Shown: positions 58,786 to 63,663 of the stretch, in pieces
Numbering within the stretch: the first letter of the stretch is position 1
How the letters are laid out: each line of letters starts with the position of its first letter
DNA from: Amyelois transitella
Taxonomy: Eukaryota > Arthropoda > Insecta > Lepidoptera > Pyralidae
DNA length: 64,000 nucleotides
Assembly: GCF_032362555.1 (NCBI RefSeq)
Contig: NC_083520.1
Coordinates: forward strand, 7,564,001-7,628,000
Direction: 5' to 3'
Translations under genes and position numbers: made by a program
The notes under the pieces: model-generated
Databases searched by the model: none
Told to the model about the DNA's origin: nothing
Seen by the model: the letters and a program-made list of their open reading frames with translations, nothing else

Positions 58786-61700
58786 ATGAATTTACAAGGA
58801 GTTCGCCAATATCTAAATGAACTTAGAAATTCCGGTGGTCTTCACAGAGATCAAGCAGTGAAGTATGCATGCAAAATTAACAATTATTTATAACTGATAT
58901 TTTATTAGTTCACAAAAAAGTAAGCAATAAAGTATGTATATATAGTAGTAAGAGTAATACAATTTTATCTATTTTTTTCAGATACCGCAATGTTCTCATG
59001 GAGATACTTAAAAATCCGGAAGGAGAGTTGGCTGACTGTTTGAAAGCATTTGTTGAAGCAAGTATGTATTATATAAACTAAATTTTTAACTCCATTTTTT
59101 ACAACATCATTCATCATTTTGTACTACACAGATAAAAGAAATCCATTTAATTGAAGAACCCAAAGAAGATTGTGTAAGTACATAGATGAATCACACAGGT
59201 GCATCTGTGTAAAGCACACAGATAAATTAACATTTTTGCATTAATATGGGATGTCATTACACTAGTCTTACATTCATTCTAAAATGAAACACATTGTTAC
59301 AGTTGTCAATGAAAATGTAAGTTTGGTGATATCCCGGCAGCTCCTCACAGACGTCAGCTCCCATCTGGCCCTGTTGCCCGACAATGTGTCACAGGAGGTT
59401 TCACATTTTGCCCTTGATGTCATTCAGCCTCGGGTCATCTCTTTTGAAGAACAGGTTTGTTTCTGTAAAATTAAATACAAATAAATAAATACTATTTAAA
59501 TAATTATATTTTGAAAAAGCCTTGTGTGTGAGACTCACAAGGGACCGGAAAAAGTGAAAGTATTTTTCTTAGCTCTAATGTTTAGACTAATGCCAACTAA
59601 TTTACTTCAAAGAGGTTATGGGTTTTTTAATATTTTCCAGGTTTAGCTGCTATATGTGTAAATAACTGTACCACATTTTATTGCAGGTAGCTAGCATTAG
59701 ACAGCATTTGGCAGATATTTATGAGAGGAATCAAAATTGGAAGGAAGCTGCAAATGTTCTGGTGGGGATCCCACTGGAAACTGGACAAAAGTAAGATATT
59801 TTTAATTATAAACTATTTTTGTTAATACTAATTTTCATATGTCTTATATCCTGTCTTTATCTTTGAATTTTAATCTATCTTTGATGTAAATGGAGACTAT
59901 GTTTGGTGAATGGACCGACCTGTGCATCAATGAAGCATGTTATGGAAAAATATAAGTTAAAAACTAAATTTTAACATAATTTTTAAACCAATTCATTTTT
60001 GTATCACATTTCAATAGTTTATAGCTAAAAATAATTTTTAATGGTATTTGCAGGCAATATTCAGTGGACTACAAGCTGGAGACATACCTCAAGATAGCAC
60101 GTCTGTTCCTGGAGGTCGATGACCCGGTGCAGGCAGAGGCCTACGTGAACAGAGCCTCCCTTCTGCAAGCTGAGACCACCAATGAACAACTGCAGATATA
60201 TTACAAAGTGTGCTATGCAAGGGTGTTGGATTACAGGAGGTAAATTTTACATTAATATAATCACATCTTTATCCCTTATGAGGTAGACGCAGCCAACAGT
60301 ATTTTTCCAGTTTGAAGGCCCAAGGCTCAGTGTGGTTTGATGGAATTAAATTAATTTAACATGTATATATAAGCCTTAAACACAATATAGTCCCTCACTT
60401 ATCCATTAAAAAATTTATATACCATTAACTAGTTACGGCTTGGAAAGGGTACTAATAATTAGTGTCCGACCGAAGCTTCGGCTTCGGCTTCGGCCACCTT
60501 TGGCCAAAAAATCCACCTTCGGCGAAACATTCGGCTTCGGCCCAAAACCCGACCGAAGCCGAAGGTTTCGCCGAAGGTCCGAGCGACCGTCGAGATTGAA
60601 CGAACTGTTACGAAAGTCATGAGGCGACGGGGAGTCACTGTCAAAATATCACATTTAGAAGTTAGTTTTTGTTTATTTTATTTATTAGTCTAGTTTTGGT
60701 CTAGTCGAGTAAAACAAAGACTGATTGGTCTAATTGTAATTTGTGAATTACTGTAATTCAATTACATAATAAAGAAATCAAATCATTATTTTTTACCAGT
60801 AGGTAAATCAGGTAGTAAAGATTTCTGCTATAGCGAAGAAAAAGAGAATGAGATGGAAGGCGAAATTGAAATGTTCGAAATTGTGGAAGCACTTAAGAGT
60901 ATGAAAGCGGGTAAGGCTGCTGGGTATGATAGAGTGTCGGTCGAGATGCTAAAAGCAGGAAAAGGCGTCGTAGCTAGACAGTTGTACTGCCTTTTCAATT
61001 TGTGTTGGAGAAGCGGCCGAGTACCAAAAGATTGGTGTAAGGCTGTTATCGTGCCACTTTACAAAGGAAAAGGGTCACAGCTGGACCGCAAAAGTTATCG
61101 TGGTATAAGCCTGCTTAGCGTCGTCGGCAAATTGTATGCTAAGGTATTGATTAATAGAGTCAGGAATGAAACTGATGACAAAATATGGGATGCTCAAGCG
61201 GGATTTCGAAAGGGAATGGGATGTACTGATCAGGTCTTTTCCTTGCGGTGCATAGCCGAAAAGTTTTTGGCCAAGAGTCATAAAGTCTATTGCACATTCG
61301 TAGATCTGGAAAAGGCCTATGACAGAGTTGAGAGGAATGAATTGTGGTTAGCACTTTCTATGCATGGGGTGAGCAGTCTCTTAATACGAGCACTGAAATC
61401 CTTATATGAGTATTCGAGTGCTTGTGTCAGGATAAACGGAGCGCACACTGAGTGGTTTAAGATTGAGAAAGGCGTTAGGCAAGGATGTGTGGCGTCACCG
61501 TGGCTGTTCAACCTATTTATGGATAGTTGTTGGACAGATTTGAAAGAGTCTGAAAGTGGATTAAGGATGAATGAGTTACTCATCAAATGTCTGCTCTATG
61601 CCGACGATCAGGTTATACTGGCGTCATCTGCGGAAGAGTTACAGGAGATGGTAAACTGTATGCATGAAGCTTTAAAAGAGAAAGGAATGAAAGTGAACGT

Positions 61701-63663
61701 AAGTAAAACTAAAACACTGGTTTTTGAAATGGAGAAAGAAATGACATCATGTAATATTTTGATTGGAGGAGAAAAAGTTGAGCAAGTGAAAGAGTTTATA
61801 TATCTAGGATCAAAGTTTACATCAGATGGCAAGTATGATAGTGATATTGAAAGGAGAGTGAACGCGGGGAACATGGTGAATGGAGCTTTGCATGCCTTTA
61901 TGAGCAGTCAGAAACTATCCAAAAAGGCTCGACTGGCTGTGCACATGGGCGTGTTGGTCCCGACATTAATGTAAGGGAGTGAAAGTTGGGTATGGCAAAA
62001 TAAGCATGAAAGCAGAATAAATGCAGTGGAAATGAGAGCGTTAAGGAGTATGATGGGTGTGAAATTGAGTGACAGGATAAGGAACAGCGTGATAAGGGAA
62101 TGTTGTGATGTGAAAGAAGATGTAGTTACAGGAATAGAAAAGGGTATGTTAAGATGGTTCGGTCATGTGGAGAGGATGAATGAAAGCAGGTTGACTAAGC
62201 AGATATACAAGGAGAGTGTGGAGGGAAAGGTCGGAGTGGGACCGACACCTAGACGAACGTATCTTGATCAAATTAAGGACGTTGTGGTAAAAGGTCAGGT
62301 CAAAAGTACCCGAAACCGCCGAGCTTGTATGAAGAGAGTTATGAATGTGGATGAAGCGAAGGAAGTATGCAGAGATCGTGGCAAGTTGAAAGAGGTAGTC
62401 TCTGCCTACCCCTCCGGGAAAGAGGCGTGATTTTATGTATGTACCTATGTAAATCACAAACTTTTATTTATCTCTAAACCAACCATCTCTATGATATATC
62501 ATCAACTTCTATATGAGACAGTCAATATATAAACCTTCAATATTGAGGGTTTGAAATAATTTTAATATTAATTGTAGCTTGTAGACAATTTGAACGAAAT
62601 TAATTACTGAGTGCTGAGAGAATATAAACCTTCGGCTTCGGCTTCGGCCGAAGGTTGTGGCGATAGCCGATTAATCGGCTTCGGCTTCGGCTTCGGCCAA
62701 AAATAGACCTTCGGTCGGACACTACTAATAATATACATATAAACCTTACTCTTAAATCACTGTGATTGAACCTGGTAAATTGTTACTCAGAGGGAACCAC
62801 TTTACTAATGGGCCAGAATGGACTAAATTCAAATTTCTGCTATAAAACCGAAAATATGATAATTTTCAGGAAGTTCATAGAAGCAGCTCAGAGGTACAAT
62901 GAGCTCTCTTACCGCAACATCATACACGAGGATGAACGGATGACTTGTCTGAGGAATGCGCTCATCTGTACAGTTTTGGCTTCAGCTGGTAATTACAAAT
63001 CACATTCTTATTTACAAGCTATTTATTAACATCTTGGATAAACATATGTAATTAATTTTTTAAAGGCAACTGTTTTATTTATAAATAAATATGTATGTCC
63101 AGTTTTGGACATAGGCCTCTTCCAATGTTCTCCAATCCTGATTGTCTTGGGCAATCGACATAAAATCTCATCCCACATATCGAACAAAGTCGTCATTCCT
63201 TGCGGTTTTGTTAAATATATAAACCCTATTAATTCTTTCTTTCTACGAGGATTACAGTTCCACCTTCTGCCGCATTTGGCTCGCATAACTTCTTTCGTGA
63301 TAGCTAGTCTGAATTTACTAGCAATAGTGAACTTATCTACCCTGCAAAAATGTCTTGCACTTCATTGATGTATTGTATGGTTATCAGAAAAATATGCTAA
63401 CCTACCAAATTTCAATGCAAATTCGCCTTTATTACCGCGTGATAGAGTTCCATCCGTTTAATTATGTACAAACCAAGTAGAGATTAGATCTACCTTCAAC
63501 ACTTTCAGGCCAACAGCGTTCCAGAATGCTAGCGACTCTGTTCAAAGACGAGCGGTGTCAACAATTGCCAGCGTACTCCATCCTCGAGAAGATGTACCTG
63601 GACCGCATCATCCGCCGCTCGGAGCTTCACGAGTTCGAGGCGTTGATGCAGACACACCAAAAG
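58786..63663 (+). CDS. COPS4: COP9 signalosome subunit 4, first seven exons, open at the right edge
   Basis: Exons 58786-58862, 58982-59061, 59303-59454, 59687-59790, 60054-60239, 62870-62988 and 63509-63663 (donor AAG|GTACTG) give 291 residues. The full protein is about 400, so its C-terminal winged helix and tail lie outside. CSN4 is a PCI-domain scaffold of the COP9 signalosome, which removes NEDD8 from cullins. It is highly conserved: [19 protein letters not shown] block (here [20 protein letters not shown]), [60 protein letters not shown] and [20 protein letters not shown]. All seven donors and acceptors are canonical. Intron 5 (2.6 kb) contains the hAT-like element and the LINE nested in it. 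The gene is divergent from LIN54. Confidence 0.98.
60811..62448 (+). mobile_element. 5'-truncated RTE-like LINE nested in the hAT-like element
   Basis: The insertion is bounded by a direct repeat GTAAATCA (60803-60810 and 62449-62456), a plausible target-site duplication. It lacks the endonuclease region and begins within the reverse-transcriptase fingers. It ends GGCGTGATTTTATGTATGTA. Short pieces of the same 3' end are scattered through the window (for example 11903, 27736, 41138, 53766), so the family has been active here repeatedly. Confidence 0.85.
60853..62430 (+). pseudogene. LINE reverse transcriptase, one nonsense codon
   Basis: One frame runs from 60853 to the TGA at 62428-62430, broken only by TAA at 61972-61974. 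The reverse transcriptase motifs are present: [71 protein letters not shown] and the catalytic [10 protein letters not shown]. After the stop come the C-terminal blocks [18 protein letters not shown] and [13 protein letters not shown]. The stop falls in the motif TLM-x-GSESW, where related LINEs have tyrosine, so one base change explains it. The protein copies the element RNA at the nicked target. The clade (RTE-like) is judged from motif resemblance only. Confidence 0.93.
63098..63296 (-). repeat. LINE C-terminal coding fragment in CSN4 intron 6
   Basis: The minus strand reads [40 protein letters not shown] and PMSK, the degraded end of a LINE protein. The plus strand has GGACATAGGCCTCTTCC, as at 17829-17932. 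Confidence 0.7.

Follow-up and report, generated by a model that had tools for sequence, protein, structure and literature searches.

Transposons of the hAT superfamily have been characterised by inverted ends of 10-25 bases, target duplications of 8 bases and lengths of 2.5-5 kb, according to the parts of PMC3942097 that deal with them, and the target duplications of Hermes follow the consensus nTnnnnAn as stated in PMC2803484. According to PMC10368747, sets of subterminal repeats close to the inverted ends are a feature of most hAT transposons, and Hermes and Tol2 are described there with palindromic repeats close to their ends. Small hAT elements of the MITE type were found in two Helicoverpa genomes with lengths of 56-260 and 120-550 bases and inverted ends of 17-29 and 28-63 bases, as tabulated in PMC9033116. 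The RTE elements of Lepidoptera are described in sections of PMC2887409 as having a 3' UTR that is extremely short and contains simple repeats, tails of di- or trinucleotide repeats, many partial copies of the 3' end and target duplications of 6-12 bases, with a duplication of 20 bases for one full-length element.

Representatives of both kinds appear to be nested within one another in an intron of the gene CSN4 in the window, that is, the whole 64,000-nucleotide stretch of Amyelois transitella DNA that was analysed. The reading that we prefer, with a probability of roughly 85%, is that a non-autonomous hAT-superfamily transposon of 619 bases would have inserted by cut-and-paste into coding intron 5 of CSN4, duplicating 8 bases, with the transposase supplied in trans from another part of the genome. 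A LINE of the RTE clade would then have been copied into it from the 3' end, and copying would have stopped early, leaving a dead, 5'-truncated insert flanked by an 8-base duplication of its own. The TTCGGC/GCCGAA motifs located towards either end of the transposon are most likely its subterminal repeats, to which the BED finger of the partner transposase would bind.

CSN4 is a housekeeping gene. Its coding exon 5 (60054..60239, + strand) lies upstream of the insertion and coding exon 6 (62870..62988, + strand) downstream, the limits of both being set by eye from splice signals. The upstream exon contains the Pfam domain PSMD12-CSN4_N (E 2.4e-11) and matches five PDB sequences named CSN4, four of them at ~1e-30 and one at 3.6e-15. 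When the peptides of five upstream and one downstream coding exons, chosen by eye, were joined, the product aligned to CSN4 of PDB 4d0p over residues 5-240 (E 4.2e-107). Since this alignment is ungapped across the insertion, the outer element lies in coding intron 5, where the initial annotation had placed it, with the proviso that the number counts coding exons and any non-coding first exon would shift it. In the next CSN4 intron the stretch 63090-63400 reads like what we take to be a remnant of a common insect LINE (TGGACATAGGCCTCTTCCAATG).

The outer element extends over 60460-62724 and has perfect inverted ends of 16 bases, flanked by direct copies of the 8-base sequence CTAATAAT. The left end TAGTGTCCGACCGAAG (60460..60475, + strand) pairs with the right end CTTCGGTCGGACACTA (62709..62724, - strand) at 16/16 bases, and the two copies of the target duplication, to neither of which a strand is assigned, are found at 60452..60459 and 62725..62732. 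Together with the LINE the composite measures 2265 bases, and without it the element is 619 bases long if one copy of GTAAATCA, the duplication flanking the LINE, is counted as its own. Inward of the subterminal motifs the remainder of the left part (60579..60802) is mostly AT-rich and the right part (62457..62630) is AT-rich, again with no strand assigned. A 25-base match to the outer element, which includes an AT-rich run, is present at 12352-12376 of the window.

A scan of the window for inverted ends that are 10 bases or longer, at most 5 kb apart and with exact 8-base flanking repeats, returned 60460-62724 as the sole pair, and there were none in 20 order-1 Markov windows. Lowering the minimum end length to 8 bases gave 2 pairs in the window and 4 across the 20 simulated windows combined. 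Neither duplication is rare in the window, where CTAATAAT has 7 copies on the + strand with a further 2 on the -, and GTAAATCA has 2 and 4 respectively, so that each counts only through its position, and the outer one is persuasive in combination with the inverted ends. The two final bases of the right end happen to recur in the left flank, which would also allow the outer direct repeat a length of 10 bases (TACTAATAAT); the 8-base reading keeps the inverted ends symmetrical. The hAT-like element with 16-base perfect inverted ends and an 8-base duplication that had been proposed is therefore present with both of these features exact.

Its assignment to the hAT type is supported by structure. 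The inverted ends, at 16 bases, fall within the 10-25 bases of the superfamily, and the duplication of 8 bases, seen at one site and readable as up to 10, conforms to nTnnnnAn, which is weak evidence coming from a single site. The outer element has eight reading frames that reach 50 amino acids, and a Pfam scan of six of them, all but those at 60410-60622 (+) and 62604-62756 (-), detected no hAT domain. Matches below the cut-off were obtained in two of these six frames, to unrelated families with a best E of 0.031, and the idea of a coding remnant of a hAT transposase was rejected. The lack of a BED finger or hATC domain in the 6/8 frames is what is expected of a non-autonomous copy, and the most fitting reading of the outer element is a non-autonomous one of hAT type, its membership being judged by ends and duplication since neither a transposase nor a second copy or an empty site came to light. 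Superfamilies with 8-base duplications besides hAT include, for example, P, Merlin and Zisupton-type elements, and with the superfamily read from the ends and the duplication, and no transposase found in the scanned frames, one of these could have supplied the element instead. We consider such an origin improbable, given that CTAATAAT agrees with nTnnnnAn and that the element starts with TAGTG, which presumably suits the usual hAT end. The prevalence of subterminal repeats among hAT elements in the account of PMC10368747 also argues against it and in favour of hAT.

Within the outer element is a 5'-truncated RTE-like LINE (60811..62448, + strand) comprising a reverse transcriptase, a C-terminal region and a 3' tail of 18 bases, and flanked by copies of GTAAATCA at 60803..60810 and 62449..62456 (no strand assigned), in agreement with the proposal of a LINE carrying its own 8-base duplication inside the hAT-like element. 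The LINE frame 60808-62430 is open save for a single stop at 61972-61974 and ends in the stop codon 62428-62430, after which 18 bases follow up to GTAAATCA. The first protein part contains the RVT_1 reverse transcriptase domain (Pfam, E 8.4e-40), a model that covers reverse transcriptases in general, and the C-terminal piece gave no Pfam match. An endonuclease was not found in this copy because it starts too far downstream. When the first protein piece was compared with viral contigs there were four pattern-matching stretches, none of which was confirmed.

The LINE duplication taken alone is only moderately beyond chance and is the weaker of the two, a shared 8-mer at the LINE flanks having arisen in 17/300 simulations with loose boundaries and in 35/5000 when the 3' boundary could vary over only 11 positions. 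The 3' end of the LINE can also be located from its relatives. A blastn comparison located nine further stretches of the window that are related to the 3' part, with 71-83% identity over the matched pieces, on the - strand at 27720-27917, 27330-27453, 25601-25692 and 36195-36259 and on the + strand at 41123-41242, 53765-53863, 11899-11977, 51191-51253 and 54959-55064. All were aligned except 25601-25692, the match of which stops short of the 3' end. The fragment at 27720 is identical to the 3' end of the LINE up to ATTTTATGTATGTA, five bases before the duplication, those ending at 41242 and 53863 share the end approximately, the one at 36195 shares it as far as ATTTTA, and the other four of the eight stop earlier or are too diverged. 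The ends common to these fragments thus fix the 3' end of the LINE, give or take a few bases, without recourse to the duplication.

The LINE is probably a member of the RTE clade, to judge by its anatomy and motifs. The reverse transcriptase is of the non-LTR type, as far as the general RVT_1 model tells, the 3' UTR is very short with 18 bases after the stop and a simple-repeat tail of two ATGT units, and GTAAATCA, at its moderate significance, lies within the 6-12 bases of lepidopteran RTE duplications. The window as a whole holds many truncated RTE-like ends. In these respects the anatomy fits that of the lepidopteran RTEs as presented in PMC2887409.

The LINE, placed as it is within the outer element and flanked by its own duplication, is the younger of the two. 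The initial annotation went further and proposed that the hAT element entered CSN4 intron 5 first and that the LINE arrived second. The nesting upholds the part of this claim that has the LINE entering a hAT copy; that it did so at the CSN4 site does not follow, because the LINE could already have been part of a hAT copy that then transposed there as a unit. Such a composite, assembled elsewhere and moved whole into the intron by a transposase acting in trans, would be expected to show the same nesting and the same duplications, and the content of the window separates neither order from the other. Size is no bar to it, the 2265 bases being just below the 2.5-5 kb given in PMC3942097 for hAT transposons. 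It calls for one event more than insertion of the LINE at the CSN4 site and, with no direct evidence against it, we hold it to be rather unlikely. The order of hAT element and then LINE at this site is the simpler one and is retained here.

The outer element is also distinguished by arrays of TTCGGC/GCCGAA just inside both ends. The left array (60477..60578, 8 copies) and the right array (62631..62697, 7 copies), neither assigned a strand, were reported in the initial annotation and are there: 8 copies fall in the first 160 bases and 7 in the last 110, and 0/2000 simulations reach either count. On the + strand 12/18 window copies of TTCGGC are inside the outer element, as are 7/7 copies of TTCGGCTTCGGC. 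The left array includes a strong inverted repeat with 26-base arms at 60515-60578, and the 12 bases at 60470-60481, where the left inverted repeat runs into the first TTCGGC hexamer, are palindromic (CCGAAGCTTCGG). At the right end there is no palindrome at the matching place and a 16-base palindrome, AGCCGATTAATCGGCT, is found further inward at 62665-62680. Single-strand folding gave z -7.0 for the left end and z -4.5 for the right end. The description of this architecture as unusual is not supported, since the majority of hAT transposons carry subterminal repeats in the account of PMC10368747, so that in kind such arrays are usual for hAT elements. The motif itself had no printed match in the open-access literature searched, where neither the outer end sequence nor TTCGGC arrays of three units were found, and a looser search with 9 bases gave nothing on transposons in the titles and abstract openings of the matches listed.

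The TTCGGC/GCCGAA motifs are most likely the subterminal repeats of the element and a putative binding site for the BED finger of the partner transposase, a role that is plausible. Against this binding role is the observation that the arrays consist of 3.2-3.8 units of a 6-base sequence repeated perfectly in tandem and have CCGAAG in common with the inverted ends, and that they are oriented alike on the + strand at both ends rather than mirrored, which puts them outside the inverted symmetry. They could thus be simple-repeat expansions, or copies of the CCGAAG of the inverted ends, with no part in binding, and we give this a substantial chance, somewhat short of even. It is compatible with the main explanation of the element and both can be true together. 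What speaks for binding is that the arrays are close to both ends and that tandem pairs of the motif are found nowhere else in the window, as well as the occurrence of subterminal repeats in most hAT elements (PMC10368747). A more specific possibility, which we advance tentatively and regard as doubtful, is that of a hAT lineage in which the transposase would bind direct TTCGGC arrays at both ends, the left repeat and first hexamer making up a palindrome, in a Hermes-like BED-binding layout with a motif that differs from that of Hermes and bears CG. If this were true DNA methylation could affect the motif.

Searches with the first 15 bases of the outer end were also made in prokaryote and viral collections, which are not expected to contain the element. 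They gave 4 viral stretches and at least 80 matches in genome contigs of bacteria and at least one archaeon. TTCGGC/GCCGAA occurred in the next 200 bases of 6 of the 84 matches listed, with a maximum of 2 copies each, and a tandem TTCGGC or GCCGAA pair in none of the 84. These matches were dismissed as coincidence. Thirteen of the 84 listed are one repeat within a single Bradyrhizobium chromosome. In that of Bradyrhizobium barranii TAGTGTCCGACCGAA and near-identical following sequence stand at at least 13 places, which is probably the end of an insertion sequence and was taken as unrelated.

Both elements are ordinary, familiar kinds of genome debris; the locus adds new examples of established types, and nesting of this tidy sort is common. 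Its value is that of a clean textbook nested insertion, with duplications still visible at both levels, and the hexamer arrays offer a concrete candidate for the transposase binding motif of one hAT family. Neither the nesting nor the arrays alters the understanding of such elements.

The outer element resembles the non-autonomous, MITE-like hAT elements, kin of Hermes, hobo, Ac and Tip100, in its perfect short ends, its 8-base nTnnnnAn duplication, its subterminal repeats at both ends and the absence of a detected coding domain in 6/8 frames. Set against the hAT MITEs of Helicoverpa in the figures of PMC9033116 it is slightly larger, at 619 bases, and its ends, at 16, are slightly shorter. 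As with the Hermes subterminal repeats that are bound by BED fingers in the description of PMC10368747, short repeated motifs lie inside both ends, and CCGAAGCTTCGG, overlapping the left inverted repeat, recalls both the quasi-palindrome in repeats 1 and 2 of the Hermes left end and the palindrome that directly follows the inverted repeat of Tol2 in the same source. The motif differs, being TTCGGC here, as read from sequence alone, and AAGT in Hermes. The inner LINE, for its part, shares with BmRTE and HmRTE-e01, as they are portrayed in PMC2887409, the reverse transcriptase and the very short 3' UTR with a simple-repeat-like tail, and with lepidopteran RTEs generally the 5' truncation and a duplication within 6-12 bases. 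Unlike BmRTE and HmRTE-e01 it is missing the endonuclease half and is interrupted by one stop codon, and where the RTE tails of that account are di- or trinucleotide repeats its own is made of ATGT units.
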